Shown one piece after another: positions 33,969-58,905 of a stretch of 64,000 nucleotides of DNA. How positions within the stretch are numbered: position 1 is the stretch's first letter; every line of letters begins with the position of its first letter. The notes below the pieces were generated by a model that had not been told where the DNA came from, did not search any database, and was given only the letters and a program-made list of their open reading frames with translations. The translations under genes and the position numbers were made by a program. Source of the DNA: Myxococcaceae bacterium (lineage in GTDB: Bacteria > Myxococcota > Myxococcia > Myxococcales > Myxococcaceae); assembly GCA_017881265.1 (NCBI GenBank), contig JADGRA010000067.1, forward strand, positions 1-64,000, read 5' to 3'.

Positions 33969-35060
33969 TCACCGCCCGGAAACTGCCTGGTACACCGCGG
34001 CAAGGTGCTGGGCGACGCTGGCCCAGCGAAACCCTTCCGCGTGACGGCGGCCCGCCTGCCCACGCGCCCTCCGCTCGTCCGGGGACTCGAGCAGCCGCCG
34101 GAGCACCATGGCCAGCCCCGGCGCATCGTCCGGGCTGACCTGGACAGCGGCGTCCCCGCAGACCTCCGGCAAGGCACCCGCCGTGCTCACCACTGCCGGG
34201 GTGCCCAGCGCCATCGCCTCAAGCGGTGGAAGGCCAAAACCCTCGCCGCGAGACGGGAAGACGAAGACGGTGGCACGTTGCATGAGGGCGCGCAGCAGCG
34301 GCTCCGGCTGAAAGCCCAACGTGCGGATGTCGTAGCCGGCGCTGCGCATCTCGCGAATGCGCTGCTCAACGGGCGCTGAGCCGTACCAGGCTTGGCCCAC
34401 CAGGACGAAGGGCACGCGCCGCCACGCACGCAGGCGCTCGAGCGCGTCCAGGACGAGGGAGACGTTCTTCCGGGCGTCGAGCGCGCCGACGTAGAGGAGA
34501 AACTCCGCTGGCAGCCCGAGGGTCTCGAGAAAACGTTGGCTGGTGGCGTCGAGGACGGGCAGACGGACGTGGTCGACGCCGAGGTGGGCCACGCTGAGCT
34601 GCGCCTCGTCGAGCCAGTCAAAGCGTGCCAGGAGCGAGCGGCGGGTGGTGGCGCTGTCGCAGACGACGTGGTCGGCGACACGCAGGCTACGCTCGAGCCA
34701 CAGCCGGAACTGCCACCGAAAGCCAGGCGACACCGTCTCGGGGAGCTCCAGCGGGATGAGGTCATGCACGGTGAGGACGTACGCCGTGCCAGGGAGTCGC
34801 CGGAGCGGGAGGTCGAAATTGCCCACCGCATGGAAGACGGAGGGCCGAAGCTTCGCCAGCACCCGCGGAAGCTCGGCCAGCACATACAGGCTGCGGCTGC
34901 GGAGCTGGCGTGGGTACTCGCCTGAGCTGCGCGCGCCGAGGCGTACCACCGGGATGCCGAGCTCGCCCAGTGCCCCGGCCACCTGGCGCGTGTAGAGGCC
35001 AATCCCGGTGGTGGGCTCGTCCCATAGCATCGCGTCCAGGGCCACCGTCGGCGGCGTCAT
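33969..35060 (-). CDS. GT4-family glycosyltransferase
   Basis: GIGLYTRQVAGAL, LYVGALDARKNVSLVLDAL, FPSRGEGFGLPPLEAMALGTPAV. Confidence 0.92.
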   Translation of the reverse strand: MTPPTVALDAMLWDEPTTGIGLYTRQVAGALGELGIPVVRLGARSSGEYPRQLRSRSLYVLAELPRVLAKLRPSVFHAVGNFDLPLRRLPGTAYVLTVHDLIPLELPETVSPGFRWQFRLWLERSLRVADHVVCDSATTRRSLLARFDWLDEAQLSVAHLGVDHVRLPVLDATSQRFLETLGLPAEFLLYVGALDARKNVSLVLDALERLRAWRRVPFVLVGQAWYGSAPVEQRIREMRSAGYDIRTLGFQPEPLLRALMQRATVFVFPSRGEGFGLPPLEAMALGTPAVVSTAGALPEVCGDAAVQVSPDDAPGLAMVLRRLLESPDERRARGQAGRRHAEGFRWASVAQHLAAVYQAVSGR

Positions 35061-37282
35061 GGCACACGCTCCCAGGGCCAGACGACGCGCGGCGGCCACG
35101 CCGGACGTGGCGTGTTGGAGTCCAGGGAAAGGTTGGGGCTGTAGTAGGGGTCCCGCTCGATGAGCGCGCCCCAGCGCTTCCGCATCACCGCCTCCTCGCG
35201 CAGGAAGCGCCGGCGGTCCCCTCCGCGCTCATCAGTCCCTCGCGACGCGGACTCCCGGTGGTAGAGCTCGGCATACGGGGTCCACAGGTTCCGGTAGCCC
35301 GCTTTCAACAGCTTGAAGCACAGGTCGACGTCATTGAAGGCGACCGGCAAGTCCGCTTCGTCAAGGCCCCCGATTTCCAGAAAACGGTCCTTGCGTATGA
35401 CCATGCAGGCTGCGGTGACGGCGGCAACCTCGCGCGTCGTCTGCAGCTGAAGCAGGTACCCGTCCGCCTCTCGCGGCTCGCGCAGGTAGCCGTGCGCCGC
35501 CACACCGAATAACCCGGCCACGGTGCCCGCATGCTGCACGGTGTCGTTGGGATACAAAAGCTTCGCCCCCACCGCCCCGACACCGGGCTGAAGCGCAAGC
35601 CCGACCATCTCGGTCAGCCATCCAGGGTCGATGGCCTCCACGTCATTGTTGAGCAGGCAGAGCACCTCACCCCGTGCCTCGCGCGCAGCCAGGTTGTTCA
35701 TGGCTGAGTAGTTGAAGGGCTGCGGGTAGGCCAGGACGCGCGCGGCGCCATCCTGCTCCAGCTCTCGGAAGTAGGCATGAGTCCGCCGTTCGCGGCTGCC
35801 ATTGTCCACGACCAGGACCTCCAGCGGCCGGTAAGCGGTCCTCTGGACGCTCTCCAGGCACCGGCGCAGCAACTGCACGCGGTCCCGGGTCGGCACGAGC
35901 ACGCTGACCGGCGGCAGTGGCGACGAGACCGCATAGCGCACATGGCAGGTGCGCGGCCGGCGCCCCAGCTCCACGCGTGCCGCCACGTGCGCGTCGTCGA
36001 GGCTTGCCTGCACCACGCGAACCGCTGCCTGCGCTTCTTGCGAGCTGGGGTCATGCTCGGTCCGGGTGCGCAACAGCACGAATGGAAGGTGACCAATGCG
36101 CGTCGCTGGAAGCTCGGCGGTGTAGCGCAGCAGGAGCGCATGGTGGGAAGCGGCCCCTGGCTCGGTACCCCATCCCCCGAGTGCCCGCACAAGCGTGGTG
36201 CGAAGGAAGGCCGAACGCCCCACGTAGTCGAAACCACGGAGCAACTCGGGGCAAAAGTCTGGCTTGAAGGCCGGAGCGAGTTTCCCCGCCGCATCCTCCC
36301 CGTCGGTGTCAGTGTAAAGGAGAGCGAGGGTTGGCTGTCGGCCAGCGACCTCTGCCACGGTAAGAAGCGCGTGCTCGGCGAGGACGTCCCCGGCTTCGAG
36401 CCGGGCAACGAGGTCCCCGTTGGCTGCCGCCAGCGCGTCCCTTCCGCTCGCCCAGCGCACGCGCGACGCGCCTTCGAAGTCGCTGGCAATTTGCCGGAGC
36501 TCGTCCGTGGTGGCCTCCGTCGCAAGACAGAGTTCCCAACTCGGGTAGATCTGCCGTCCAAGGCTGTCGAGTGTTCGCCTCAGCCCGGCTCCTGAAGTGT
36601 CGCCGGGTGCGACGAGAATCGAGAAGCTCGGTCGGACGACGAGGTCACCAAGTTGGGCGCGGAGGTGCGCGCGCTGCTCGTTGTTTAACGTCGCATACCT
36701 TCGGGCCCAACCCTCGTATCCTTCCTCAGCAAACTGCCGTTGGGTGCCCCGCCGTAGGCGCTCCACGACCCCGGTGGGCCCGCGGAACCAGAAGAGGCGT
36801 CCCGCCCGGCCAAGCAGCACGATGAGCTGCCGTGGGTTGCGCAGGAGGCGCGCCAGTTGCGGCGCAGCGTGCGCCACCACGGCTCCCACTAGCGAGAGCT
36901 CCACCAGGCGCACGGGCCCAAGCCTAAACTCGCCGAGTTGGCCTGGCTGTAACCCTACGCCGACCGTGGCGCGCGGCAGGGTCACGACTGCAGACACGAC
37001 CCCTGCGCGAGGGGCCGGAAGCGGAACTCGCGGAGCGGCCTCGGTGAAGCCGTCGCCCGTATTCACGAGGAGTGTTGCATTGCCTGGCGGCGAGACGTCT
37101 GAGAGCTCTAGTTCGAGTCGCACGTCCCCGGTTGGAAGTGGTCGCCCAGCCTTGGGGACTAGCATGATGAGCGGCCGCGGGCCCCGCACCTGCCAACGGC
37201 CGTCCCCGAGCCGCTCGACCTCCCGCAGGGGCTCGGGCTCGAGTCGGGATGCGCGTCCAACCAGCCAGCGCTTTCGGTTCAC
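35057..37282 (-). CDS. Tandem GT2-domain glycosyltransferase (RfbC/WbgA-like)
   Basis: Second GT2 domain VSVLVPTRDRVQLLRRCLESV...LLNNDVEAIDPGWLTEM; first GT2-like domain degenerate. Confidence 0.85.
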   Translation of the reverse strand: MNRKRWLVGRASRLEPEPLREVERLGDGRWQVRGPRPLIMLVPKAGRPLPTGDVRLELELSDVSPPGNATLLVNTGDGFTEAAPRVPLPAPRAGVVSAVVTLPRATVGVGLQPGQLGEFRLGPVRLVELSLVGAVVAHAAPQLARLLRNPRQLIVLLGRAGRLFWFRGPTGVVERLRRGTQRQFAEEGYEGWARRYATLNNEQRAHLRAQLGDLVVRPSFSILVAPGDTSGAGLRRTLDSLGRQIYPSWELCLATEATTDELRQIASDFEGASRVRWASGRDALAAANGDLVARLEAGDVLAEHALLTVAEVAGRQPTLALLYTDTDGEDAAGKLAPAFKPDFCPELLRGFDYVGRSAFLRTTLVRALGGWGTEPGAASHHALLLRYTAELPATRIGHLPFVLLRTRTEHDPSSQEAQAAVRVVQASLDDAHVAARVELGRRPRTCHVRYAVSSPLPPVSVLVPTRDRVQLLRRCLESVQRTAYRPLEVLVVDNGSRERRTHAYFRELEQDGAARVLAYPQPFNYSAMNNLAAREARGEVLCLLNNDVEAIDPGWLTEMVGLALQPGVGAVGAKLLYPNDTVQHAGTVAGLFGVAAHGYLREPREADGYLLQLQTTREVAAVTAACMVIRKDRFLEIGGLDEADLPVAFNDVDLCFKLLKAGYRNLWTPYAELYHRESASRGTDERGGDRRRFLREEAVMRKRWGALIERDPYYSPNLSLDSNTPRPAWPPRVVWPWERVP

Positions 37283-37522: not shown

Positions 37523-38302
37523 ATGATTCGAAACCTCCGCGAGCTGTGGCAGTACCGCGCCCTTCTCTGGAACCTCACCCAGCGCGAACTGAAGGCGCGT
37601 TACCGCGGGTCTGCGCTCGGCTTTCTCTGGACGTTTCTCAATCCACTGCTGCTGATGGCCGTTTACGGTCTGGTGTTCGGCGTCATCCAGCGCAACCAGA
37701 TCCAGCACTACACGTACTTTCTCTTTGTCGGACTGCTGCCTTGGCTCTGGTTTTCGTCGAGCGTGGGGGCTGGTGCGAGCACGATTAGCGACCGTCGCGA
37801 CCTCCTCACCAAGGTTCGGTTCCCGGCCCAAGTCCTGCCTGCGACTGTGGTGTTGACGAATCTCGTCAACTACCTGCTCTCGCTTCCACTCATGATTGCA
37901 CTGGGTGGCATCGCCGGCATCTGGCCGTCCTGGCACGTGGTGATGTTTCCGGTGGTCCTCTTCGTCCAGCTCGTCTTCACGCTGGGCGTTTCCTTCCTGG
38001 TCTCGTCCCTGAACGTCGCCTTCCGGGACCTGCAACAAATCGTCACGAACTTTCTGACGTTGTGGTTCTTCGTGACGCCCATCCTCTACCGGCCGGACGA
38101 CGTGCCGGCCACGTTCCGCCGTGCCTTCCTCATCGTGAACCCGATGTCGGTCATCATCACCTCCTACCAGGGCATCTTCTACGAGCATCGGCTACCGCAC
38201 TGGCGGGCACTTACGGTTGTGACCCTGGCCTCCTTCCTCCTGCTGTGGCTCGCCTCGCGCGTCTTCGAGCAGAGACGCGAAGAGTTCGCAGAGTTGGTGT
38301 GA
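37523..38302 (+). CDS. wzm: Polysaccharide ABC transporter permease (Wzm-type)
   Basis: LTQRELKARYRGSALGFLWTFLNPLLLMAVYGLVF; ABC2-type membrane protein. Confidence 0.92.
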   Translation: MIRNLRELWQYRALLWNLTQRELKARYRGSALGFLWTFLNPLLLMAVYGLVFGVIQRNQIQHYTYFLFVGLLPWLWFSSSVGAGASTISDRRDLLTKVRFPAQVLPATVVLTNLVNYLLSLPLMIALGGIAGIWPSWHVVMFPVVLFVQLVFTLGVSFLVSSLNVAFRDLQQIVTNFLTLWFFVTPILYRPDDVPATFRRAFLIVNPMSVIITSYQGIFYEHRLPHWRALTVVTLASFLLLWLASRVFEQRREEFAELV

Positions 38303-38305
38303 CCC

Positions 38306-39592
38306 ATGGATGCCATCGTCCTGCGTAACGTGAGCAAGGAGTTCCGCAAGAAGACCATCCGCCGCGAGTACACGACGCTCAAGTCAGAGCTGGTTCAGTT
38401 CCTGAAGCGACGGCAGTCGCGGGCCGCGCCGATGGCCGTCACCTCGGCGCTCCGGGATGTCTCCCTCACCGTGCCACGGGGAAGAACCGTTGGTCTGGTG
38501 GGCCGGAATGGCTCGGGGAAGAGCACGCTGCTCAAGCTGGTCACCGGCATTTACCGCCCGACCAAAGGTACGGTGGAAGTGAACGGCCGCATCTCCGCCC
38601 TGCTCGAGCTGGGCGCGGGTTTCCACCCCGACTTCTCTGGACGGGAAAACATCACGGTCAACGGCATCATTCTCGGCATGTCGAGGCGGGAGATTCGCGA
38701 GCGGATGGAGGAAATCATCGCCTTCAGTGAGCTCGGGGACTTCGTCGACGAGCCTGTCCGCACCTACTCCAGCGGGATGTATGCCAGGTTGGCCTTCAGC
38801 GTGGCTACCCACGTCGACCCGGACCTCCTCATCATCGACGAGATTCTCTCGGTGGGCGACGAGCACTTCTCCCGGAAGAGCACCGCGAAGATGGAGGAAT
38901 TCCGACGCGCCGGGAAGACCATCCTGCTCGTGACACACGACCTGGCAAGCCTCGAGTCGCATTGTGACGAGGCTGCGTGGCTGGATGCGGGCACCCTCAA
39001 GGCGTATGGCGACCCCGCGTTCGTCGTCTCCGAGTACCGCAAAGCAGTCGCCGAGTCGGAGGTCCACGCGGAGACCACGCCCGGCCATCCACCGGTGGTG
39101 GCCGTTCACCCGACCGGCCGCCAACCTCGTAGCGGAGCGCCAGCGGAGGTCGGGCGTCGTTGGGGAACCTTCGAGGCAGAGGTGACGAGCGTGCGCTTGC
39201 AAGGTCCCGGCGGCGAGGAGCGCACAGTCTTCGATGCAGAGGACAGCTTGGAGGCACGGTTACATGTCGATGCGGATGCCTCGCTCGCCCATTTGAGCAT
39301 CGAGGTTTCACTGGTCTCCGCGGATGGGACACTCCTCTGGCGCAGCATTCAACCCATGCCTTCAGCCACTCACGCGAGCGCAACGTTGACCCTGGAACGG
39401 GTTGGGCTTGCAGACGGCAACTACCGCCTCGACGTCGCCGTGTTCGCGGAGGAGGGTCGAGTGTGCTGTGACTTCCAAAAGGGGCTTCACGGCTTCGCGG
39501 TCCGGAGTTCTGGCTCAAGCCCCGGGCTGGTGCGAATACCGCACGCCTGGACGGTCGAGCCTCCGCCACCCAGCGAGGCTCAGGCGTCGTAG
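38306..39592 (+). CDS. wzt: Polysaccharide ABC transporter ATP-binding protein (Wzt-type) with C-terminal domain
   Basis: Walker A GRNGSGKSTLLKLVTG, YSSGMYARLAFSVATHVDPDLLIIDE, Wzt-C-like beta extension. Confidence 0.93.
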   Translation: MDAIVLRNVSKEFRKKTIRREYTTLKSELVQFLKRRQSRAAPMAVTSALRDVSLTVPRGRTVGLVGRNGSGKSTLLKLVTGIYRPTKGTVEVNGRISALLELGAGFHPDFSGRENITVNGIILGMSRREIRERMEEIIAFSELGDFVDEPVRTYSSGMYARLAFSVATHVDPDLLIIDEILSVGDEHFSRKSTAKMEEFRRAGKTILLVTHDLASLESHCDEAAWLDAGTLKAYGDPAFVVSEYRKAVAESEVHAETTPGHPPVVAVHPTGRQPRSGAPAEVGRRWGTFEAEVTSVRLQGPGGEERTVFDAEDSLEARLHVDADASLAHLSIEVSLVSADGTLLWRSIQPMPSATHASATLTLERVGLADGNYRLDVAVFAEEGRVCCDFQKGLHGFAVRSSGSSPGLVRIPHAWTVEPPPPSEAQAS

Positions 39593-40131
39593 AGCGGCAA
39601 TTCCGTCGCCTCCGAGAGGCTCGGAGCCGCTCCGTCCTTGGCTGAAATCAACAGCGAAGCGACAGGCCAGAGGATGCCCAATCCTGGGTCGTCCCATCGA
39701 ATCGCCCGCTCACAGTCGGGAGCGTAGAAATCCGTGCACTTGTAGAAGAAGTCGGCTCCGTCGGAGAGCACGCAGAAGCCGTGGGCGAAGCCCGGCGGAA
39801 TCCACATCTGTCGACGGTTCTCTTCGCTTAACTCCACCCCGACCCAAGCTCCGAAGTGTGGCGAGCCCCGCCGCACGTCCAGCGCAACATCCCACACAGC
39901 GCCACGGAGCACCTGCACCAACTTCCCTTGGGGGCGCGGCTGCTGATAGTGAAGTCCCCGCAGAGTCCCTTTGGCCGAGCGGGAGAGGTTGTCTTGGACA
40001 AAGGGACCGCGAATGCCGACGGCCGCGTAGCGCTCCGCCTGGAAGGTCTCAAGGAAGAAGCCCCGGGCATCACCGAACGCACGCGGCTCGACGATGAGGA
40101 CGCCGGGAAGGTCAGTCGCCGTAACCTTCAC
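39580..40131 (-). CDS. rfbC: dTDP-4-dehydrorhamnose 3,5-epimerase
   Basis: [18 protein letters not shown]...[18 protein letters not shown]...[15 protein letters not shown]. Confidence 0.96.
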
Positions 40132-41012
40132 TGTCGCGCACCCCCGGTGCGGAGCAGTTCCAACAGGTACTGCCCATATGCGTTCTTCTGCATGGGCTCG
40201 GCGAGCTGCGCCAGGCGGGCCGCGTCGATGTAACCCATGCGGAAGGCAATCTCCTCCACGCAAGCAACCTTCAGCCCCTGTCTGCGTTCGACGATTTCGA
40301 TGAACGTCGAAGCGCTCTGGAGAGCATCGTGAGTTCCGGTGTCAAGCCACGCGTAGCCGCGCCCGAGCAGCTCAACGGTCAGTTGGCGACGTTTGAGATA
40401 CGCTTGGTTGACATCGGTAATTTCGAGTTCACCGCGGGCGGACGGTCTCAAGCCTGAAGCGATGTCGACCACCTGGTTGTCGTAAAAGTAGAGCCCGGTG
40501 ACCGCGTAGTTGCTCTTCGGGTGACGAGGCTTTTCCTCCAGCGAAAGCGCTTCATTCGCAGGTCCGAGTTCGACGACTCCGTACCGCTCCGGATCGCTGA
40601 CGTAATAGCCGAAGACGGTGGCGCCCTGCGTTAAATTGGCTGCACGCTGCAGCCGGTCGCTCAACCCGTCACCGTAGAAGATGTTGTCGCCGAGGATTAA
40701 CGCCACGGGCTCGGTGCCGACGAACGTCCGGCCAATGATGAAGGCCTGCGCCAGCCCCTCGGGACGTGGCTGCGGGGCATAGGACAGCCGCAGTCCCCAC
40801 TGTTCTCCCGACCCAAGTAACTCCTCGAACCGCGGAAGGTCTTGCGGGGTGGAGATGATGAGAATCTCTCGGATCCCCGCGAGCATGAGCGTGCTGAGCG
40901 GGTAGTACACCATCGGCTTGTCGTAGATGGGGAGCAGTTGCTTGCTGACCACTCGCGTGAGCGGATAGAGGCGCGTTCCGGACCCACCGGCGAGGATGAT
41001 GCCCTTCATCAT
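40128..41012 (-). CDS. rfbA: Glucose-1-phosphate thymidylyltransferase
   Basis: [44 protein letters not shown]. Confidence 0.97.
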
Positions 41013-41911
41013 GTCGCTCCTTCAGCCAGCCGGACAATTCGATGGAAACGCTCGAGAGCGGCTGCCAACTTCAGAGGGCCAGCCGAGAGCTCAGCTGCGG
41101 CTTTGTCGGTCCGCAGCCCGCTCCGCCTGGGTCGGGGGCTCTTCAAGTGGGCATCGGCGAGCCGCGACGGGATGATGTGGGTTGGGTCGAGGCCGAATTC
41201 TGCGCAGAGCGCCTGACCGAATTGAACTCGGTTGACGACCTCAGCCCCGCAGATGTTCCAGACGCCGACAAGGCGCCGCTCCGCCAGTTCCACCAACTGC
41301 TCGGCCACGCTCTCGGCAAGACTTGGCGAGACGTACTGGTCCTCGAACAGACGCACCGGTGTTCTCTTTCGGAGCGACTCGAGCAACCAACTGCCAAAGT
41401 TCTGCCGCCCTGCGGGAGGCCAGCCATAGACCACCGCGGTCCGTGCGATCGCCCACGAGGACCCTACCGCCTTCACTGCCTGCTCCCCGATGTGCTTGGT
41501 CAGAGCGTAGACGCCCCGCGGGTTAGGCACTGAATCCTCGCTGTAGGGGCCCGTGTCCCCGTCAAAAACGTAGTCGGTGGAGACATGGACTAGATGAGCA
41601 CCCACATCGCGGGCCGCAATCGCAAGGATGCCGGGAGCAATACCGTTGACGCGAAGCGCATCACGGGCCGCGCTCTCGCACGCGTCAACCTCGGTCATCG
41701 AACCTGTGTTGAGGATGACCTCGGGGCGAGCAGCGGCCACGGCAACCGTGAGCTTGTCTTCATCCACGAGGTTCACCGACACGTACGCGTCGGCGGAGGC
41801 AAAGCGTCGTGGGCCTCTCCCGAGACCGGTGACCTCGTGGCCCCGTACAGTCAGAGCCGCCGCAAGACGAGTTCCAACGAGGCCATTGACGCCAGTGACG
41901 AGGATACGCAT
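41009..41911 (-). CDS. rfbD: dTDP-4-dehydrorhamnose reductase
   Basis: [46 protein letters not shown]. Confidence 0.93.
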
Positions 41912-41917
41912 CGCAGC

Positions 41918-42946
41918 TCAGCCGGGGCTCGCTCCGAGTCGAGCACGGTACTGGCTATCGAAGTACTCACGATAGGCGCCGCTGTTGACGTGCTCCCACC
42001 AAGTGGGGTGGTCAACGTACCAGCGCACCGTCTCGGCCAGACCCTGCTCGAACGTGTGCGCGGGCTTCCAGCCAAGTTCCTTGCGGATCTTGCTGGGATC
42101 GATTGCGTAGCGGCGGTCGTGGCCAGGTCGATCGGCGACGAAGCGGATGAGTTCTTCACTCTTCCCGAGGAGCTTGAGCAATCCTCGGACGAGCTCGAGG
42201 TTCTTCCGCTCGGCACCGCCACCGATGTTGTAGACCTCGCCCGACCGGCCTCGCTCGAGGACACCGAGGAGCGCTTCGCAATGGTCCTCGACGTGGAGCC
42301 AATCACGGACGTTCCCTCCGTCACCGTAAACGGGGAGAGGCTTGTCGTGCAGGGCGTTGACGATCATCAACGGAATCAACTTCTCGGGGAACTGGTAACG
42401 GCCATAGTTGTTGGAGCACCGGGTGACCACGACGTCGAGACCGAAGGTGCGACCGTACGCAAGGGTGACCAGGTCGGCGGCTGCCTTCGAAGCAGAGTAT
42501 GGGCTCGAGGGCTGAAGAGGCGACGACTCGGTGAACGCACCAGTCGGGCCGAGCGAGCCGTACACCTCATCGGTGGAGACCATGACAAACCGACGGACTC
42601 CGATTGCCTTGCACACCTCGAGGAGCACCTGCGTCCCGAGCACGTTGGTCTGCACGAAGACCTCGGGACCCAGGATGGAACGGTCGACGTGGCTCTCCGC
42701 CGCAAGATGCAAGATGCCTTCAATCCGGTAGAGTCCGACGACGTGTTCGATTAGCTCGCGATTACAAATGTTCCCTCGGACGAAGATGTGTTTCGGGTCG
42801 CCCTCCAGCGCCGCGAGGTTTTCGAGGTTACCGGCGTAGGTCAGCTTGTCGAGCGTGACCAAGGTCCAGTCAGGCCGCCTCGCGCGGAGGTGGTGGACGA
42901 GGTTCGACCCGATGAAGCCGCAGCCGCCTGTGATGAGGACATTCAT
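41918..42946 (-). CDS. rfbB: dTDP-glucose 4,6-dehydratase
   Basis: MNVLITGGCGFIGSNLVHHL, STDEVYGSLG, PYSASKAAADLV, CSNNYGRYQFPEKLIPLMI. Confidence 0.97.
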   Translation of the reverse strand: MNVLITGGCGFIGSNLVHHLRARRPDWTLVTLDKLTYAGNLENLAALEGDPKHIFVRGNICNRELIEHVVGLYRIEGILHLAAESHVDRSILGPEVFVQTNVLGTQVLLEVCKAIGVRRFVMVSTDEVYGSLGPTGAFTESSPLQPSSPYSASKAAADLVTLAYGRTFGLDVVVTRCSNNYGRYQFPEKLIPLMIVNALHDKPLPVYGDGGNVRDWLHVEDHCEALLGVLERGRSGEVYNIGGGAERKNLELVRGLLKLLGKSEELIRFVADRPGHDRRYAIDPSKIRKELGWKPAHTFEQGLAETVRWYVDHPTWWEHVNSGAYREYFDSQYRARLGASPG

Positions 42947-43109
42947 TGCGTTCGGCAACACCGACCATCTTCCCGGGCGCGAGTCAACTTTCAAGTGCTC
43001 TTGGCGGGCCGCCTTCGAGGCCATGGACGACGAAACAGCCCCCTTCGGATCTGGATCGGAGATGACGTGCCTAGCCAGGCGCGCACCGGGGTCTCTCCGC
43101 TGGAGCGCC

Positions 43110-44456
43110 TCACCGGTCCATCTGGGGGTCCGGGCACGGGCGTCGAAGGGCGCTGAGTTGGTATTCTTTTAGTACGGGAGCGAAGGTGCGTATCCGCGCT
43201 GGGGTGTGAAAAATGCCCGCGAGCTCGCCATCGGTCGCTGTCTCGTAACAGCGCAGCGCCTTCTGCTGAGCCAGGCGCGTGTTCCTCCAGAAACGGCCTG
43301 CGTCGCCGGCGACCGGTTGGATGAAAAGAACACCACCGAGAACGACCCCCAAATACGCCCCCAGCCCACCAACGGCGAGTCGCCCACCGTTTTCCCCATG
43401 GACGAGCAGGAGCAGGTAGACGCCAACGATGAGGAGATTGACCAGGGTCACATAGCGAACCGACTGCGCCTGGACGTCACCGAAGCCGGACCGTCCGACG
43501 GTAATCATTCCTGCCGTCAAACCCGAAAAGGCGATCAGTCCCAAGGCCATCGTCGTTCGTTCGCTAGGCTGCCTGCGCAGAGCAGTGACGATCGCGAACA
43601 CGGTGAATGCGACGAGGACTGCCCCGCACGCGATACAACGGCGACGCTCATCTTCAAGCGGGCTGCCGAGAAGAACCAGAAAGTACTCAGCGCCAGCTCG
43701 GGGTTCGTGCAGCAAATAAAGCGGGCTCGGATGGTGTCCCGGGCGCGTATATCCCCACAGGTAAGACGCCACGCAGAACGCGCCCGCAGCTGTCCACCGG
43801 ACCATCCGCCCTATCGAACGAGGTCCGTCGCCAGAGCTCAGCCAAATCAACAGCAGGCCAACAGGCCAGACGCACAGTCCCGCCGACAGCGAGTAAGTGC
43901 TGGCAGCTGCCAGCACCATTGCTCCTGCCTCCTGGATTGGCGGAGGACGCGAAGCGACAACGAGGCGCAGGGCTGCGACTGCACTAAAAAGACACAGAAA
44001 GAACGTCACCTGCCATCCCCAGAGCAGGTTATCCCACTGCCTCCAAGAGAAGAGCACCAGGCTCACGGGAACCATCGACAGCACCAAGGGCCACGGTGCG
44101 GACCAGTGGCCGATTTGTTGCCGAATGAGGATGGCTCCCGTCCCCATCAGGAGAATGACGCCGAGATACATTTCCCAGCGAACGTCCCAGTGTGACGCAC
44201 GAGCGAGTGCGAGCATGACGAGCCGTGGCACGACAATCCGGTGCTCGTTGTGCTGGACCCACAAATCGCGTAGCGGCAGACGCCCTTCGAGGGCTTGCTG
44301 CAGCATGGGAACGAAATCCCATTGGTCCCACCATGGGACGTCGACCGAGTACTTTCGGACGAATCCGAAAGTCAACGCAGGGGGCAGAACAACCGCCGCC
44401 CATGCCAGAGTCCTGGCAGCCCTGGATGCCAACGTCGGTGTGGCAGGGCCCTTCAT
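43110..44456 (-). CDS. Polytopic membrane protein, candidate GT-C-like glycosyltransferase
   Basis: About 10 hydrophobic segments; large early loop VDVPWWDQWDFVPMLQQALEGRLPLRDLWVQHNEHR. Confidence 0.6.
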   Translation of the reverse strand: MKGPATPTLASRAARTLAWAAVVLPPALTFGFVRKYSVDVPWWDQWDFVPMLQQALEGRLPLRDLWVQHNEHRIVVPRLVMLALARASHWDVRWEMYLGVILLMGTGAILIRQQIGHWSAPWPLVLSMVPVSLVLFSWRQWDNLLWGWQVTFFLCLFSAVAALRLVVASRPPPIQEAGAMVLAAASTYSLSAGLCVWPVGLLLIWLSSGDGPRSIGRMVRWTAAGAFCVASYLWGYTRPGHHPSPLYLLHEPRAGAEYFLVLLGSPLEDERRRCIACGAVLVAFTVFAIVTALRRQPSERTTMALGLIAFSGLTAGMITVGRSGFGDVQAQSVRYVTLVNLLIVGVYLLLLVHGENGGRLAVGGLGAYLGVVLGGVLFIQPVAGDAGRFWRNTRLAQQKALRCYETATDGELAGIFHTPARIRTFAPVLKEYQLSALRRPCPDPQMDR

Positions 44457-45262
44457 CTCGCTCGCTGGAGTTCTGGACGGGAGGACCCCTCCGCGGTCGG
44501 CCTCGCCCCAACGGTGAGCACGAAAGAACCAAACGCGCGTCCGAGTCCTACCCGTTCCCAAAGCCAGTCGACACCGTTGAGGACGCTCAGGATCGAATCA
44601 ATAAGCTTGGGTGCGACGTGCCGATACGCGATTCCAGATTGAGCGCGTTGCCGAATCTCGACGAGTCCCGCGGATTCGAACACGCTCCGCAACTTAGACG
44701 GGAGCAATGGACATTCGTCGGGGCTCACGCCCTCAGACAAGTAGAATGGGCTCCGCGGATGCCGCAGAAGAAGCATTCCTGGATGGAGAAGGTTTGGGTC
44801 ATAGGCAAAGACTGTGCCCCCCGGGCGCACGACTCTAGCTGCTTCTCGAAGGGCACGGGCGATGTCCGGGATGTGATGCAGCACACTGCTGAAGGCGACA
44901 ACGTCGAACGTTTCGTCGTCGAAACGGAGGTTGCATGCATCTCCGACCTCCCACTTCAGCTTTGGGTACTTCGCACGAGCCACCTCGATGGAACGCACCG
45001 ACAAGTCGACGCCCACGTACCCAGTCGCCCGTCGAGCGTAGATGCTGTGGGACGCACCGGTGCCGCAACCGATGTCCAGCAGTGACAGGCGTTCTCGGGG
45101 GAGCACCCACTCCTCAAAACGCCGTGCAAGTACCGCCCATCCAGAGTCGGCGAAGGGATTGAAGTCCCCTTGCTCGGCGACGAATCCGTCGAAGAACGCC
45201 GATTCACGCTCGGCCACCGACGCACGCATGGGCTCGGGAACCCCTGAAGAATGGGGTTTCAT
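44453..45262 (-). CDS. Class I SAM-dependent methyltransferase
   Basis: LLDIGCGTGASHSIYARRATGYVGVDLS; AFSSVLHHIPDIARALREAARVVRPGG. Confidence 0.93.
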   Translation of the reverse strand: MKPHSSGVPEPMRASVAERESAFFDGFVAEQGDFNPFADSGWAVLARRFEEWVLPRERLSLLDIGCGTGASHSIYARRATGYVGVDLSVRSIEVARAKYPKLKWEVGDACNLRFDDETFDVVAFSSVLHHIPDIARALREAARVVRPGGTVFAYDPNLLHPGMLLLRHPRSPFYLSEGVSPDECPLLPSKLRSVFESAGLVEIRQRAQSGIAYRHVAPKLIDSILSVLNGVDWLWERVGLGRAFGSFVLTVGARPTAEGSSRPELQRAR

Positions 45263-50398: not shown

Positions 50399-53300
50399 AT
50401 GAGCAACGAGCAAGCACCGTTCCGCTACTCCAGGCCTCCCGTTGACCCTGAGGGAAGGGAGCCCCTTGCCATCATCTCTCGCTGGATTGGGTCCGGAGCC
50501 GCGGTTCTCGACCTGGGAGCCTCGACCGGAGCTTTGGCCCGTCTCCTTGCTGCGCGGGGTTGCGTCCTCGACGGTGTGGAGATTGATCCCATCGCGGCGG
50601 CGACGGCGCGGCCGTCTTATCGTTCGCTGGTCGAAGCAGATCTTGAAACCGCCCGCCTGCCCGCGCTTTTCGAGGGGCGACGGTACGACGCCGTGGTCTG
50701 CGCCGACATCCTCGAGCACTTGCGAGACCCGGGCCCGCTTCTCGACCAGGCACGCGAGCTTCTGAACCCGGACGGAGCCCTCCTCGTCTCCCTTCCCAAC
50801 GTGGGCTACGCCGGGGTCGTGCTCGAACTGCTGGCCGGCGAATTCAATTACCGACCACTCGGGATTCTCGACTCGACACACGTTCGCTTCTATACGCGGC
50901 CCTCCCTGCTGAAGCTCGTCACCAACCATGGCTTCCACCCGGAAAAGCTGGAACTCGTCACTCGGACCCTCGACGATTCGGAGTTTGGGAGTCGCATGCT
51001 GGAACGCATTCCGCCGCGCATGCTCCGGGCCGTGCACGAGCAGACCGATGCACTCGTCTATCAGTTCGTCTTGCGTGCGAAGCTCATTCCGGGCCCTCGC
51101 GCCTTCGCGACCTCGCCGCCGCTTCCACTCGCGTGCTTTGTAGCACAGCTGTTTTGGAGTACAGGAGCCGCCAAGACATACGAGGAGAAGAACAGCGTCA
51201 CGACGACCGCCCCGCTCGATAGTGCGGTGCACGAGCTGAGATTTGTGTTCCCGGCATCGTCTGGCGAGCCTATTTCCCTGCGGCTCGATCCCTCTGACCG
51301 CCCTGGCTTCATTCACCTACACAGCTTGGCAGAGGAAAGTGAATCGGGCCCACCGCGATGGACGTGGCTGGCGGGCCAGGGTCCACCTCCAGTTCGCCCC
51401 CTTAGCCAGTTGCTCGCCCTTCCAGCTGATCCCATTCCAACATTCCTGTCCCTGGGCGAGGACCCATCGCTCGAGTTGATCCTCCCCCAGAAGGTGCAGC
51501 GTGAGGGCCGTGGCCTCCTCGTCGTCCGAATTTCGCTGTCGCCGACCGCGGAGGCCCTGGCGGTTGCTCGCGGAGCCGCGGATGCAGAAGGACGGTTAGC
51601 CCGTTCAGATGCTGCAACTGCAAGAATCGAACAGCAACTTGCTCGGACGGACGCGCGCCTTGCTCAGACGGAGGTGCGGCTACTAGAGGTCGGCGACCGC
51701 GAGCAGGCCAGTCTCCTCGCAACACGAGCTGACATCGCAGCGGCCGCGAAGGCGATTACGGCACTTGAACTCTCCAACCAAGCCCACGGCGAGGCCCGAC
51801 TAGACGACTTCGTCCAACTGTCCAACGGCATCGCAAGACTCCACAGCGAGATGGAAAGGCTTCGGGGGACGCTCGACGAGATGCAGTCCTCGAGCTGGCG
51901 GGGGGTACTTTCCAGACTCACCACTCGGATGCGCCGACGCAGCCGTCGCGTGATCGCTTCTCTGCTCCCGAGCCGTGTCAAAGCCTTTATCCGAAAGCAG
52001 CGACTTCTGCGACGCGCACGACTGATTACCAGTGCCGGTCTCTTCGACGCCGCCTACTACCGATCCCAAAACCCCGATGTGGGCGCTGCTGGGTTGGAGC
52101 CGCTTCACCACTACCTGGCCCACGGAGCGGCGGAGGGCCGGGACCCTCATGAGATGTTTGATACGTCATATTATCTCGAGCAAAACCCAGACGTGGCAGC
52201 GAGCGGACTCAATCCTCTCTTGCATTTCAGTTTGCACGGACGCGCCGAGGGCCGGCGACCGCACCCTGGCTTCACGGCAGATCAGTATCGCGCAGCCACG
52301 TCTCAAGGCCACCTCGTGGCTACCCGCGAGTCAAGTCCGACGGTCTCCTCAAGGCAGCACCTTGGTCTCACATTTCGGCGCTTCAGGACCCGTCGGTTCG
52401 ACAAAGGCCATCCGCAGCAAGATGCAGGCAAAGCCCCTAGCTTCAGAACTCTCGTCGTTAGTCACGTGCTGCCATTCCCGCCGCGCGCTGGCAACGAGTA
52501 CCGCATCCATCGGATGGTGAAGTGGCTCGAATCGATCGGGCACGAGGTCCACCTTGTCGTGGAACCGCTTCCAGGCGAATCTCTGGAGGCCGCGGCAGTG
52601 GAGCGTGCGGCGCTTGAATACCCAAACCTGATCGTCTGCGAACGGGACGGCACGCTACTCTACCAGTCCGGACGACCGGAGGTCATCTCGCAACTGTCAG
52701 CGTTGGATGAGGAGAAACCGCATTCGTTTGGAAAGCTGCCTAGTTCCGCGGGCCCAACAGCCGGGAAAGTCGCGGACCTCGAGCAGACCTTCTGTCCGGA
52801 CCACCTCCTCGACCTCCTGCTCCGGTTAGAGCATTCCATCCGACCGCACCTGGTAATCTGCAATTACGTCTTCATGAGTCGCTTTCTCACGATGTTGAGT
52901 AGCACCGTCTTCAAGGTCATCGACACCATCGATGTCTTCTCGACAAAGGCCAGCAAGGTCCTGCGCTTTGGAGTGGCTGACTCTCTCGATATTTCGCCTG
53001 TGGACGAAGGCAACCTCCTGAGGCGCGCCGACTTAGTTGTCGCCATTCAGCCGAATGAGGCCACGGAACTTCGGACACTGGTACCCGACAGGCCGGTCGT
53101 GACAGCAGGAGTCGACTTTACAATCGTCGCAGATCCTCGGGCCACACCGAGTGAGCCCGTAGTCCTGTACGTTGCCTCGAGCAACGCCCTCAACGTGAAA
53201 GGTGTCCGGGACTTTCTCTCCCTGTCATGGCCTCTGGTCCGACAGAGTGTTCCAGATGCCCGAATGTTGGTCGTCGGTCCTGTCTGCGAGGCAATCGACG

Positions 53301-53695
53301 CCGGCACCGAGGGGGTCGAACTGCTCGGTCGGGTGGACAAGCTCGACGACATTTACGCGCGGGCAAGGGTCGTCGTGAACCTCGCGGTCGCAGGGACAGG
53401 TCTGAAGATCAAGACGCTAGAGGCCCTCTCGCACCTCAGGCCAATTGTGGTCTGGCCATCGGGCGTCGACGGTTTGAGCCCAGAAGCGCAGCGCTTCTGC
53501 GACGTGGCGCATGATTGGTACGACTTCGCACGTCGTGTAGTCCGGCAGCTGACCGGTGACCAAGCACGCGACCTCGTCTCGCATCGCGTGGAAATCGAAC
53601 GGGAGTTCTCGCCAGCGGTGGTTTATGCTGAACTGCGAGCGGCCATCGAGGCGGGGATACGGCCTGCCTCGTCCCGGGAGGCGAGCGGCGCGTGA
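50399..53695 (+). CDS. Chimeric methyltransferase / coiled-coil / NPDV-repeat / GT4 glycosyltransferase
   Basis: N-term VLDLGASTGALARLLAARGCVLDGVEID; heptad-like ARIEQQLARTDARLAQTEVRLLEV; repeats FDAAYYRSQNPDV and FDTSYYLEQNPDV; C-term SHVLPFPPRAGNEYRIHRMVKWLESIGHEVHLV. Confidence 0.88.
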   Translation: MSNEQAPFRYSRPPVDPEGREPLAIISRWIGSGAAVLDLGASTGALARLLAARGCVLDGVEIDPIAAATARPSYRSLVEADLETARLPALFEGRRYDAVVCADILEHLRDPGPLLDQARELLNPDGALLVSLPNVGYAGVVLELLAGEFNYRPLGILDSTHVRFYTRPSLLKLVTNHGFHPEKLELVTRTLDDSEFGSRMLERIPPRMLRAVHEQTDALVYQFVLRAKLIPGPRAFATSPPLPLACFVAQLFWSTGAAKTYEEKNSVTTTAPLDSAVHELRFVFPASSGEPISLRLDPSDRPGFIHLHSLAEESESGPPRWTWLAGQGPPPVRPLSQLLALPADPIPTFLSLGEDPSLELILPQKVQREGRGLLVVRISLSPTAEALAVARGAADAEGRLARSDAATARIEQQLARTDARLAQTEVRLLEVGDREQASLLATRADIAAAAKAITALELSNQAHGEARLDDFVQLSNGIARLHSEMERLRGTLDEMQSSSWRGVLSRLTTRMRRRSRRVIASLLPSRVKAFIRKQRLLRRARLITSAGLFDAAYYRSQNPDVGAAGLEPLHHYLAHGAAEGRDPHEMFDTSYYLEQNPDVAASGLNPLLHFSLHGRAEGRRPHPGFTADQYRAATSQGHLVATRESSPTVSSRQHLGLTFRRFRTRRFDKGHPQQDAGKAPSFRTLVVSHVLPFPPRAGNEYRIHRMVKWLESIGHEVHLVVEPLPGESLEAAAVERAALEYPNLIVCERDGTLLYQSGRPEVISQLSALDEEKPHSFGKLPSSAGPTAGKVADLEQTFCPDHLLDLLLRLEHSIRPHLVICNYVFMSRFLTMLSSTVFKVIDTIDVFSTKASKVLRFGVADSLDISPVDEGNLLRRADLVVAIQPNEATELRTLVPDRPVVTAGVDFTIVADPRATPSEPVVLYVASSNALNVKGVRDFLSLSWPLVRQSVPDARMLVVGPVCEAIDAGTEGVELLGRVDKLDDIYARARVVVNLAVAGTGLKIKTLEALSHLRPIVVWPSGVDGLSPEAQRFCDVAHDWYDFARRVVRQLTGDQARDLVSHRVEIEREFSPAVVYAELRAAIEAGIRPASSREASGA

Positions 53696-55566
53696 GCATG
53701 GCTGTTGGGGGGGGAAGAATGCGGGAGCTGGGAGGTGTCCTGGTCGATGTCGAACGACTTCGGCCCGAAACCGCCGCAGGCTATTTTCGAGACCTTCGCG
53801 AGCGCTTGGGCCCATCGACGCTAGTCGCAATCTCTGGCCGCCGAGAGGACTATCGGGACTTTCCTGGGCCGTCTTGCTGGCTGGAGCGTGACGCCCGCGC
53901 ACTACCCATCGCCAGCGCGCGCACCGTCAACCGGGGGGACCTCTTGGTCCTGTTCGCGCCTATTCTGGTCGACGCTGCGGTCGTTCACGGACTCCTCGAA
54001 GGGTTCAACCTGGATGAGTTGGTCGGGGTTACACAGCCTCGCTTCTCCGACGCGGCCACAGACGCCCTGTGGGCCTTGCCCGGCGGAGATGACGGCGAGG
54101 CGGAGAGGTTGCCACGGCAGAGCTTGTCGATGCTACCGAACGCTTATCTAACGACCGAATACCTTGCGGCTTGTCTTGCAATCCGTCGAGAAGTGGCCGC
54201 CAGCTTCGCGCTCGATTCGGGACCAGCACAACGGCTCTTCATGGCACTTCTTCACGAGATGCGCAGTGCGCGGCGTCGCGGCTACCGGACTCTCGTCATG
54301 AACCGGCTTGTCGTAGCATCTGTTGAGCCACGGTCGGTCATCTACCCGTTCGACGAGCCGACGTCTCGCGTCGACCGTCTCGCCCAGGTGACCCGCAGCG
54401 CCGATGATTGGTTCAACACGGCCATCCACAGGCGCCGCGAGTCGCTCGTCGCCCGGGCTAGGCGCGCGCGACCGACCGAGAACATCCCCATCTTGCTCGA
54501 TTGCCGAGGCGTCGTCGACCACCACAATGGCACCTCTGAAGCGGTCTTCGGGCTACTTGAGGGGCTGAGCCTTGAGAATCCCGCCTGGGACATTGAATTG
54601 TGCTTTACGCCCGCCGCAGCCGCGTACCACCGGGTTCCGGCACGATTCCCCGGGATGAGCGTCAGCACAACGCTCTCACGTTCCAAGTTCGCCGCAGCGA
54701 TCTGCCTCAACCAGCCCTGGAATCTCTCGACGGTCAATGACCTGCATCGACGGGCCCTGACGGTGCTCTTTAACATTCTCGATACCATCGCATGGGATGT
54801 CGTCTATCTGGCGAATCCCGAGGTCGACAAAGTATGGCATTTCATTGCTGAGCACGCCGACGGGCTTTTTTACATTTCGGCGTTTAGCAAACAACGCTTT
54901 AATTTTCGCTTTCGCATAGCGCCCGGGATCCACCAGGCCGTCACCCATCTGAGCCTTGCATCCGAGGACTACTGCGACCCTGCTACGGCAGCACTTCCCC
55001 AGGGTGACCACATCCTCGTCTTCGGTAATCACTACGACCACAAAGCCGTCGCTCCAACGGTCGACCTCCTCAGCCGGGCGTTTCCGTACCAGCGTATTGA
55101 AGCAATCGGACCTCATGCCCAATCTCACCACAACGTCAGCTTTCGCCAGAGCGGACAACTGCCAGCTGGCGAGATTGACCGTCTTATAGCTACGGCGCGG
55201 CTCGTCGTATTCCCTTCCCACTACGAGGGATTTGGGCTGCCTGTCGTGAAGGCGCTTTCCTACGGCCGAGCGGTTGTTGTGCGCTCATCGTCCCTTTGGC
55301 AGGAAATCGCGGGCTTGATGCGAATGCCCGGTCAGCTCATCGAGTTCGTCACGCCACAGGACTTGGTGAAGACCGTGGGCCAACTGCTCAACGGCGAGCC
55401 GGCCGATGTGCTTCCCCTCGGACGAGCGCTGGTCGACGATGAGCCACCCCCGAGTTGGAGGCGGTGCGCCCACGGTCTGGTCAGATTGGTCGAAAGCACG
55501 GTGGCAGGTGCGGACGCTGAAAAATGGTACGAGCGCGACCGCACTCTTGCGTTGGCATACCCTTGA
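53692..55566 (+). CDS. GT4-like glycosyltransferase
   Basis: C-terminal VVFPSHYEGFGLPVVKALSYGRAVVVRSSSLWQE; GTGA overlap with upstream gene. Confidence 0.82.
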   Translation: MSMAVGGGRMRELGGVLVDVERLRPETAAGYFRDLRERLGPSTLVAISGRREDYRDFPGPSCWLERDARALPIASARTVNRGDLLVLFAPILVDAAVVHGLLEGFNLDELVGVTQPRFSDAATDALWALPGGDDGEAERLPRQSLSMLPNAYLTTEYLAACLAIRREVAASFALDSGPAQRLFMALLHEMRSARRRGYRTLVMNRLVVASVEPRSVIYPFDEPTSRVDRLAQVTRSADDWFNTAIHRRRESLVARARRARPTENIPILLDCRGVVDHHNGTSEAVFGLLEGLSLENPAWDIELCFTPAAAAYHRVPARFPGMSVSTTLSRSKFAAAICLNQPWNLSTVNDLHRRALTVLFNILDTIAWDVVYLANPEVDKVWHFIAEHADGLFYISAFSKQRFNFRFRIAPGIHQAVTHLSLASEDYCDPATAALPQGDHILVFGNHYDHKAVAPTVDLLSRAFPYQRIEAIGPHAQSHHNVSFRQSGQLPAGEIDRLIATARLVVFPSHYEGFGLPVVKALSYGRAVVVRSSSLWQEIAGLMRMPGQLIEFVTPQDLVKTVGQLLNGEPADVLPLGRALVDDEPPPSWRRCAHGLVRLVESTVAGADAEKWYERDRTLALAYP

Positions 55567-55592
55567 ATGCTCACCGGAGCACTTGAGACTGC

Positions 55593-56450
55593 ATGCGAGT
55601 CCTAACCCTCTTCGCGCGGCATGGAAGCACGAAGTACCCCGACGCACTCGACGACCTCCACGCATTCTACAGGACCCGGCTTCGCTCCGTGCAGTACGAC
55701 TTACTTGTGGTCGATAATGATGCGGGTGTGGCCAGCCCCCGGCAGTTCTCGAAAGAGCTTGTCATCCCAGGCTCAAACCGTCTTTGGGAGTTTTCTGCGT
55801 GGGACGAGGGCCTCGCTCATCTCGGGCAGCGGGTCTGGGACTACGATTTTGTGCACCTCGTGACGTCAGCTTTCCGGACGCTTTATACACGCTACATCGA
55901 TCGCTTCGATGATGGCCTTCTTGAAAGCCTCGCGGGACGAGGTGCCGCCACGGGGCACGTCGACTACTACAACGAGCCGATTGTGGTACTCGGAAACCGC
56001 TCCCAGGCGTGGCTCCGCACCTCCTTTGTCTTCATTCCTCCCACAGAATTAGCGACCCTGGGCTCTCTCGTTAGCGTCGATAGGCCGGACGAGTTCTTCT
56101 CTGGTGACCCCGCGTGCCCGTTCCTCACCAAGGCACCCCTTTCCGAGACTTACCGCCGCTATATTCTCGACTGGCTGACCGGCCCAGGTACTGGGCAGGG
56201 AGTCATCTGGCACTCGCGATTTGAACTAACGGCAGAGAGTTTGCCGTACTTTCAGGCGAAGGTACTGGCAATGTTGAACGAACAAATGCTTGCCGTCCGT
56301 TTACGCCGCCAGGGTTGCGCGCTTGTGGATGCGACATGGCTAGCCACGCAGGCGGCCCGGAGTAATCTCCCGGCAGCGCTGCGGGCGATTCCGTACTGGC
56401 GAATACAGCTGTCGCAGCGAGACACCGACGCAGTCGCACTGCCGCCTTAA
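55593..56450 (+). CDS. Hypothetical cytoplasmic protein, possible glycosyltransferase-like
   Basis: YDLLVVDNDAGVASPRQFSKELVIPGSNRLWEFSAWDEGL, GT-A-like opening; cluster context. Confidence 0.5.
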   Translation: MRVLTLFARHGSTKYPDALDDLHAFYRTRLRSVQYDLLVVDNDAGVASPRQFSKELVIPGSNRLWEFSAWDEGLAHLGQRVWDYDFVHLVTSAFRTLYTRYIDRFDDGLLESLAGRGAATGHVDYYNEPIVVLGNRSQAWLRTSFVFIPPTELATLGSLVSVDRPDEFFSGDPACPFLTKAPLSETYRRYILDWLTGPGTGQGVIWHSRFELTAESLPYFQAKVLAMLNEQMLAVRLRRQGCALVDATWLATQAARSNLPAALRAIPYWRIQLSQRDTDAVALPP

Positions 56451-57166: not shown

Positions 57167-57351
57167 GGGACGCTCGTTTAGATTAGGGTTTCCTACGCAT
57201 CTGCGAAGGCCACATTACTCGCTCCCACTGCTTCAAGCAGCCCGACAGCGACGCCCTCTGGTCGATGCCGTCTCGTTCGCATGAGCAGGCGTGTAGCGAG
57301 CACGTTACCTACGGCGATGGGCGTGGCTAATGGAGTAGAGTGGCGAGCTCG

Positions 57352-58905
57352 ATGACTCCGAACTCTCGTCCGCGACTTCTCATCTTCGTCATCGCGTACC
57401 AGGCGGAGGCCACGCTCACGGCGGTCCTTGAAAGGATTCCTCGTCCAGTTTTCGCCGACTGGGACACCGAGGTCCTCGTCGTCGATGACGCTTCTGCGGA
57501 CCGGACCTACGAGATTGGTCGGGCGTACCGCGACGCTCATCCCGAGCTTCCTCTCGTTGTTCTCCGGAACGCCTACAACCAAGGCTATGGGGGAAACCAG
57601 AAGGTCGGGTACACCTACGCCATCGCCAAGGGCTTCGACGTGGTGGCGATGGTTCATGGCGACGGCCAGTACGCGCCAGAGGAGCTCCCCCGCCTTCTTG
57701 AGCCGCTTCGCGATGGGGAGGCCGACGCCGTTTTCGGCAGCCGGATGATGCCGCCATCGGGCGCTCTCAAGGGCGGGATGCCGCTCTACAAGTTCGTCGG
57801 TAACCGCATCCTGACGACCTTCCAGAATGCCGTCCTCGGAACGGACCTCTCCGAGTTTCATTCCGGCTACCGGCTGTACCGGGTGGCGACCCTGAAAGCG
57901 CTGCCGTACCAGCTCAATTCAAACGACTTTCATTTCGATACCGAAATCATCCTCCAGTTAGTCAACGCCGGTGCTCGCATCCTGGAGCTGCCCATCCCCA
58001 CCTACTATGGGGATGAGATTTCGCGGGTGAATGGCCTGGCGTACGCCTGGAACGTCGCCTGGGCCACCCTGCAAAACGCGGCGCACCAGGCTGGCATCTT
58101 GTACCAGCGCCGCTTCGACGTCGGCCCGACCAATGACGTTTCGCACTACACGGCAAAGCTCGACTACGCATCGAGCCATACCTTCGCGCTCGAGTCCGTC
58201 CCCGCCAAGGCACGCGTCCTCGACCTGGGCGCAGGCCCTGGGCCGCTCGCCGAGGCCCTGCTCGCCAAGGGTTGTAGCCTCACCCTGGTCGACCAAGCCG
58301 TGCGCGAGGCGCCCGCCCCGGCAAAGGTACTCGTTCGCGACCTCAACGACGACCCGCTCGACATCGAGCTCCAAGACATCGACGTCATTCTGCTGCTGGA
58401 CGTCGTCGAGCACTTGAAGGATCCGGAAAGGTTTCTCGCGGCCCTCCGGCGGCACTTCGACTACCGCACCCGCACGGTGGTGCTGACAACGCCCAATGTG
58501 GCGTTCATCATCCAGCGGCTCATGCTGCTCTTCGGACAGTTCAACTACGGCAAGGCGGGTATCCTCGACCGCACGCACACCCGGCTGTTCACGTTTCGCA
58601 GCTTCGTGCAGCTGTTGAGGGACGCCGGGTTACGCATCCGCCGCGTCCGCGGCGTCCCCGCCCCATTCCCGAAGGCACTAGGTGACAACTTCCTCGCCCG
58701 CACGGCGCTCGCCATCAACCAGGCGCTCATCCTACTGAGCAAGTCGCTGTTTGCGTACCAGATTTTTGTCGAGGCCGAGACCACGCCGGACGTCGCCTTC
58801 GTCCTTGCGGACACCGTCGGTCAGAAGCGTCCTCCCGGGCGGGACGGCGCGCCGAACCAGCCCTCTACCGAAGGGACCAATCGGCTAACGTCCGGCCACC
58901 GATGA
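57352..58905 (+). CDS. GT2 glycosyltransferase fused to class I SAM methyltransferase
   Basis: LLIFVIAYQAEATLTAVLERIPRP, MVHGDGQYAPEELPRLLEPL; then VLDLGAGPGPLAEALLAKGCSLTLVDQ. Confidence 0.9.
   Translation: MTPNSRPRLLIFVIAYQAEATLTAVLERIPRPVFADWDTEVLVVDDASADRTYEIGRAYRDAHPELPLVVLRNAYNQGYGGNQKVGYTYAIAKGFDVVAMVHGDGQYAPEELPRLLEPLRDGEADAVFGSRMMPPSGALKGGMPLYKFVGNRILTTFQNAVLGTDLSEFHSGYRLYRVATLKALPYQLNSNDFHFDTEIILQLVNAGARILELPIPTYYGDEISRVNGLAYAWNVAWATLQNAAHQAGILYQRRFDVGPTNDVSHYTAKLDYASSHTFALESVPAKARVLDLGAGPGPLAEALLAKGCSLTLVDQAVREAPAPAKVLVRDLNDDPLDIELQDIDVILLLDVVEHLKDPERFLAALRRHFDYRTRTVVLTTPNVAFIIQRLMLLFGQFNYGKAGILDRTHTRLFTFRSFVQLLRDAGLRIRRVRGVPAPFPKALGDNFLARTALAINQALILLSKSLFAYQIFVEAETTPDVAFVLADTVGQKRPPGRDGAPNQPSTEGTNRLTSGHR

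Follow-up and report, generated by a model that had tools for sequence, protein, structure and literature searches.

The open frame at 50399-53695 on the forward strand of the window (the whole stretch of DNA analyzed here, 64,000 nucleotides from a Myxococcaceae bacterium, source genome G000) would, in the reading that we favor and to which we give a probability of roughly 0.58, encode a terminator that caps by methylation and carries its own spacer, fused to one component of the polymerase for a glycan exported by an ABC transporter. The frame runs uninterrupted over 1098 aa, as the preliminary description of this DNA had it. The features to which we refer are the following (other genomes compared are labelled G006, G029, G045, G051, G067, G154, G157 and G192, and L-numbers denote homologous loci):

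50399..53695, +, whole ORF: methyltransferase (MT), beta domain, long helix, basic helices, two NPDV repeats, GT4
50462..51085, +, class I SAM methyltransferase domain, residues 22-229, motifs VLDLGASTGA and CADILEHL (Pfam PF13489, AlphaFold, Foldseek 3cc8, invariant alignment columns)
51134..51541, +, all-beta domain, residues 246-381, LRLDP motif (AlphaFold)
51548..51886, +, single 113-residue helix, predicted coiled coil, residues 384-496, about 17 nm if straight (AlphaFold, heptad periodicity)
51887..52033, +, basic helical segment, residues 497-545, candidate membrane-association base (AlphaFold, sequence)
52040..52153, +, NPDV repeat 1, 38 aa (sequence)
52154..52267, +, NPDV repeat 2, 38 aa (sequence)
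52433..53653, +, GT4 glycosyltransferase domain, residues 679-1085, TIGR03087-like (Pfam, NCBIfam, homologue in Methylovirgula)
53692..55566, +, next gene, GT group 1, cassette gene 2 (Pfam, Methylovirgula homologue)
55593..56450, +, cassette gene 3 (54% identity to its Methylovirgula counterpart, which has the same place in the order)
37523..38302, +, Wzm, ABC-2 permease
38306..39592, +, Wzt with C-terminal glycan-recognition domain Wzt_C (PF14524 above cut-off)
35057..37282, -, protein with beta domain and two GT2 domains (homologue fused to the MT-beta-helix module in G029)
40128..43024, -, rmlA, rmlD and rmlB, dTDP-L-rhamnose supply (rmlB by domain match; rmlA and rmlD by sequence and homology to annotated rfbA and rfbD)

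In the mechanism that we propose, the protein would be an assembly scaffold of an ABC transporter-dependent surface glycan of O-antigen type, in which rhamnose is probably present. The GT4 domain and the glycosyltransferase (GT) encoded by the next gene, perhaps together with other GTs of the locus, would extend a lipid-linked chain at the membrane, to which the basic helices at the base may hold the protein. Placed at the far end of the long, presumably oligomeric helix, the methyltransferase would reach the non-reducing end only once the chain is long enough; it would then O-methylate the terminal sugar directly, no kinase being involved, and growth would stop. The C-terminal domain of Wzt would recognize the capped chain, and Wzm/Wzt would export it. 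Weighing against this mechanism are that GT4 alone cannot be assumed to polymerize, that the heptad signal is moderate, that Wzm lies about 11 kb off, and that the locus holds other methyltransferases.

The N-terminal domain is a class I methyltransferase, as had been proposed: residues 28-180 match PF13489 (Methyltransf_23) in Pfam with E=1.4e-19, and the AlphaFold model (residues 1-545, 25 homologous sequences, mean pLDDT 84.4) predicts a Rossmann fold whose nearest solved structure in Foldseek is 3cc8, with a TM of 0.81 normalized to the target. Lack of a SAM site had been named as grounds for abandoning the terminator idea; the glycine-rich SAM motif is present and intact, reading VLDLGASTGA, and all 25 aligned relatives keep its first Gly, most of them having DLGCGSGA here. 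In its predicted anatomy the protein thus has a catalytic module of terminator type distal to a long coiled coil. Further methyltransferases are encoded within the locus at 44453-45262 and 57340-58905, the latter being another MT fusion in the window, with Methyltransf_23 behind GT2.

Between the methyltransferase and the helix lies the LRLDP domain, which the preliminary description had overlooked, along with the basic segment. Its 136 residues are all strands in the AlphaFold models (mean pLDDT 89.8 when modelled alone), which rules out a kinase such as that of O7 ORF6 in this position; nor did the domain searches give a kinase match. A known CBM fold is unsupported, the comparison with PDB folds having given no confident match (best Foldseek E 0.01), and the domain has no entry in Pfam or NCBIfam. 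That it binds sugar is a guess. A segment similar to it lies, in G192, at the C-terminal end of a secreted protein which resembles a glycoside hydrolase and has no Pfam match. Besides this hydrolase-like protein, terminator-like fusions and some GT2-GT2 proteins have the domain; L085 is one of the loci that carry it, and in the window a further copy forms the N-terminus of the minus-strand protein of 35057-37282.

The coiled coil claimed at about 51540-51890 agrees well with residues 384-496 (51548-51886), which AlphaFold, given 25 sequences, predicts to form one unbroken helix, followed by two shorter helices at residues 504-544. The coiled-coil prediction that had been suggested as a check gave a moderate heptad signal (p=0.018 for a period of 3.5 residues; local z no higher than 2.8), in part owing to the many alanines of the helix; a coiled coil in the window protein is predicted, not proven. 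Of 25 family members, 24 have a positive heptad score, and the coiled coil of L051 is unmistakable (z 7.2). Among these 25 members the spacer between the beta domain and the downstream GT measures from 102 to 395 residues with its ends conserved, as would be the case for a locus-specific ruler, and this one homologous family offers natural variants for testing coil length against glycan length. The basic segment, with 16 K/R and no D/E within residues 497-545, is a candidate base for membrane association.

It could also be, although we find it on balance doubtful, that methylation by the N-terminal domain is an internal decoration, placed on a sugar within every repeat unit that the attached GT4 makes, in which case the helix would serve for oligomerization or as a scaffold and chain length would be set elsewhere. 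MT-GT fusions are common in glycan loci, the window having another at 57340-58905, and in L066 and L065 GT2 follows the methyltransferase at once, with little space for a ruler. However, internal decoration would not readily account for the conservation of a long spacer that varies in length between conserved domains, for a methyltransferase that is always distal, as in proven terminators, or for the link to Wzm/Wzt and to the C-terminal domain of Wzt.

The GT4 domain announced by the preliminary description is there: PF13692 matches residues 919-1025 with E=9.6e-14, a weak match to PF13439 (residues 700-732, E=0.044) falls below the cut-off but stands in the order expected for the class, and there is homology to an annotated GT4; a phmmer search of the GT4 part against the PDB gave no match. 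The closest GT4 relative found is a stand-alone, annotated GT4 in Methylovirgula, 46% identical over 405 residues; behind it come, in unchanged order, counterparts of the two genes that follow in the window (29% and 54% identical), and rml genes accompany them. Since Methylovirgula has the GT4 alone in a conserved three-gene cassette, GT4 can be regarded as the cassette member to which the MT-beta-coil-NPDV part was joined. The cassette of GT4, GT and third protein is shared by the window (53692-56450 after the GT4) and a Methylovirgula plasmid (L075 8779-13012); neither Pfam nor NCBIfam gave a significant match for its third gene in the window, 55593-56450. The second gene adjoins the ORF, either with a GTG start overlapping the stop codon or with an ATG at 53698. 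A single-chain polymerase would have at least two GT modules C-terminal to the terminator; here there is one GT4, the second GT being the adjoining gene 53692-55566, and GT4 is probably part of the polymerase and not all of it. The idea of a fusion of terminator, spacer and polymerase-like domain is partly supported, by its context (domain order, helix, basic base and a locus with Wzm and Wzt_C), but 'polymerase' is too strong a word for a single GT4.

The two NPDV repeats that had been described are present at 52040-52153 and 52154-52267 and are identical at 23 of 38 positions, against at most 11 for other sampled 38-mer pairs in the protein. Neither Pfam nor NCBIfam has an entry for their consensus (FDxxYYxxxNPDVxxxGxNPLxHYxxxGxxEGRxPHP, about 38 aa), and a literature search on the repeat found nothing relevant. 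A special status for the repeats is not supported: they are widespread in glycan enzymes (e.g. L074 6082-11178, L098, L099, L100 and L101), and they are no hallmark of this system, being present in MT-free proteins such as an Azospirillum B510 GT4, which has a long tandem array of well over 20 copies, and a G157 protein in which three copies precede an RgpF domain. Copy number is two in the window protein and three in its counterparts in G051 and G067. One could speculate, at long odds, that the repeats serve for docking or spacing where the ruler meets the polymerase and can be adjusted as the coil can, so that copy number and coil length together would tune the position of the polymerase and hence chain length, and that the MT-coil-NPDV module is exchanged as a cassette between glycosyltransferases, changing serotype and length together. 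The NPDV repeat and the LRLDP beta domain are, in any case, two widespread glycan-enzyme domains without a Pfam or NCBIfam entry.

Relatives with the same kind of architecture were then sought, as the preliminary description had proposed for Myxococcota. The MT-beta module (residues 9-385) is rare in the phylum: of 195 genomes searched with a profile of residues 187-384, five gave a match, and G192 is among them with the beta domain only. Within the order the profile matched 2 of 145. Outside the phylum, MT and beta domain occur together in 28 loci (G029 counted among them), mostly in Comamonadaceae. A search of genome contigs with the single protein as query gave no match. The MT-beta-helix module is found in about 30 other proteins, again mostly from Comamonadaceae and a few from Myxococcota, and its partners are GT2+GT4, GT2+GT2 or no GT; in the relatives scanned with Pfam, the frameshifted L054 apart, the coil leads into GT2 and GT4 domains. 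In G029 what comes after the module is homologous to the wzm-adjacent GT2-GT2 gene of the window (36% over 787 aa), G157 encodes MT-beta-coil-GT2-GT4, and G154 provides a clean case without GT, a 674-aa protein that ends after the coil. L054 (468 aa) was set aside as a GT-less terminator because its C-terminus looks frameshifted. With a methyltransferase of a different family, the order MT-coil-3xNPDV-GT4 is found in G051 and G067, and MT-coil-NPDV-GT2s in G045. Methylovirgula HY1 encodes two such proteins, MT-coil-2xNPDV-GT4-GT2-MT and MT-coil-GT2-GT2, the second of them immediately after genes for an ABC permease and ATPase. The cases in G051, G067, G045 and Methylovirgula rule out that the architecture is unique to the source genome. 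The varied partner domains in G029, G154, G157, G051, G067, G045 and Methylovirgula mean that it is the order of modules that recurs, and that the modules themselves are exchanged.

Wzm and a Wzt with a C-terminal domain are indeed part of the locus, as had been stated, and PF14524 identifies the latter domain, Wzt_C, which is found once in the source genome. Together with rmlA/B/D they lie about 7-13 kb upstream of the fusion gene, Wzm/Wzt being about 11 kb from it beyond a block of minus-strand genes. The presence of Wzm was dismissed as evidence in itself, since 151 of 193 genomes of the phylum have Wzm, and only proximity is informative. Wzm and/or Wzt occur within 10 kb in 16 of the 28 loci of MT-beta relatives (15 of 22 for loci of at least 18 kb); the distance to Wzm is about 14 kb in G154, about 10 kb in G157 and about 84 kb, on the same contig, in G029. 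Wzt_C gave no match in G029, G045, G051, G067 and G154, and Wzm none in G045, G051 and G067, so that proteins of MT-coil-NPDV architecture may in some cases work without this exporter. An equivalent wzm-wzt-rml locus is present in G006, from a related genus (Wzm 80%, Wzt 63% and rmlB/D/A 75/60/77% identical), and holds a different protein, a 1351-aa MT-coiled-coil-GT2-WsaF fusion (L106 1107-5162), which suggests a serotype-like exchange of the terminator/polymerase gene.

A further explanation, which we consider unlikely, is that the protein belongs to a different polysaccharide pathway (Wzx/Wzy type) or serves an adaptor step, its nearness to Wzm/Wzt being incidental. A Wzx/Wzy pathway or ligases are probably also present in the source genome, three Wzy_C/ligase-type matches having been found on other contigs (C48 and C22); the separation from Wzm/Wzt by about 11 kb and a minus-strand block, and the many relatives that have Wzm but lack this gene, would fit as well. 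Yet the 16 of 28 relatives lying within 10 kb of Wzm/Wzt, and the G006 protein of the same architecture that adjoins orthologous wzm-wzt-rml genes, argue for a function in ABC-dependent export.

The design that a capping terminator with a spacer would represent is already known, the principle having been published for WsaE, WbbB and O7 ORF6; the parts that would be new here are the beta domain, the NPDV repeats and GT4. WsaE of Geobacillus stearothermophilus NRS 2004/3a joins an N-terminal 2-O-methyltransferase to two rhamnosyltransferases and is encoded in the wzm/wzt/rml cluster of an S-layer polyrhamnan (PMC2943079, PMC3898925); its methyltransferase methylates a1,3-linked rhamnose, which has been read as chain termination (PMC2943079). 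Like WsaE, the window protein has an N-terminal methyltransferase and a C-terminal GT, a cluster with wzm, wzt and rml, and presumably a second GT partner (WsaF in Geobacillus), but, compared by description, it has one GT4 instead of two rhamnosyltransferase domains, as well as NPDV repeats and an extra beta domain. In the G006 locus the design takes the MT-coiled-coil-GT2-WsaF form. Klebsiella pneumoniae O7 ORF6, a proven terminator of its glycan, has the order MT-kinase-CBM-coil-GT2-GT2 (PMC11231755) and shares with the window protein the N-terminal MT, a beta (Ig-like, CBM-like) domain, the central coiled coil, the C-terminal GT and the wzm/wzt/rml setting; it differs, again compared by description, in its 223-residue kinase domain and two GT2, whereas the window protein lacks a kinase and has a single GT4 and NPDV repeats. 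In K. pneumoniae O12 WbbB, polymerization, coiled coil and termination are combined on one chain (PMC11231755), an anatomy that resembles ours with its N-terminal terminator, coiled coil and C-terminal GT, although the WbbB terminator is a beta-Kdo transferase and both polymerizing GTs are in the same chain. Coiled-coil terminators have been called a 'characteristic marker' of this strategy (PMC11231755).

The preliminary description had invoked WbdD of Escherichia coli, which exists in an O9a form with kinase and an O8 form without kinase that methylates the sugar directly (PMC3482155). WbdD is comparable in that its methyltransferase precedes a coiled coil whose base lies near the membrane, and its O8 form likewise has no kinase, but it contains no GT and recruits a separate polymerase. 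Kinship was not found: WbdD is absent from all 15 phmmer matches in the PDB up to E 0.1 and from the best 60 of 158 profile-search matches in the PDB up to E 1, and, judged by these matches and the missing kinase, the window protein is not WbdD by homology. It is thus hardly conceivable that a WbdD-type methyl-phosphate terminator is fused here to a WbdA-like mannosyl polymerase: methyltransferase and coiled coil do come in the matching order, but the 136-residue all-beta domain stands where the O9a form has its kinase, no WbdD is among the PDB matches listed, there is one GT4 and not the WbdA tandem, and the locus contains rml genes.

If the terminator reading is true, the strategy of Klebsiella and Geobacillus, with terminator and ruler inside a glycosyltransferase, would reach this lineage with new parts. 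Loci of Chromatium okenii and Thiohalocapsa (L064, L065 and L066) encode, after wzm-wzt, proteins of 1793-2954 aa that combine MT and GT2, with GT4 as well in the two that were scanned.
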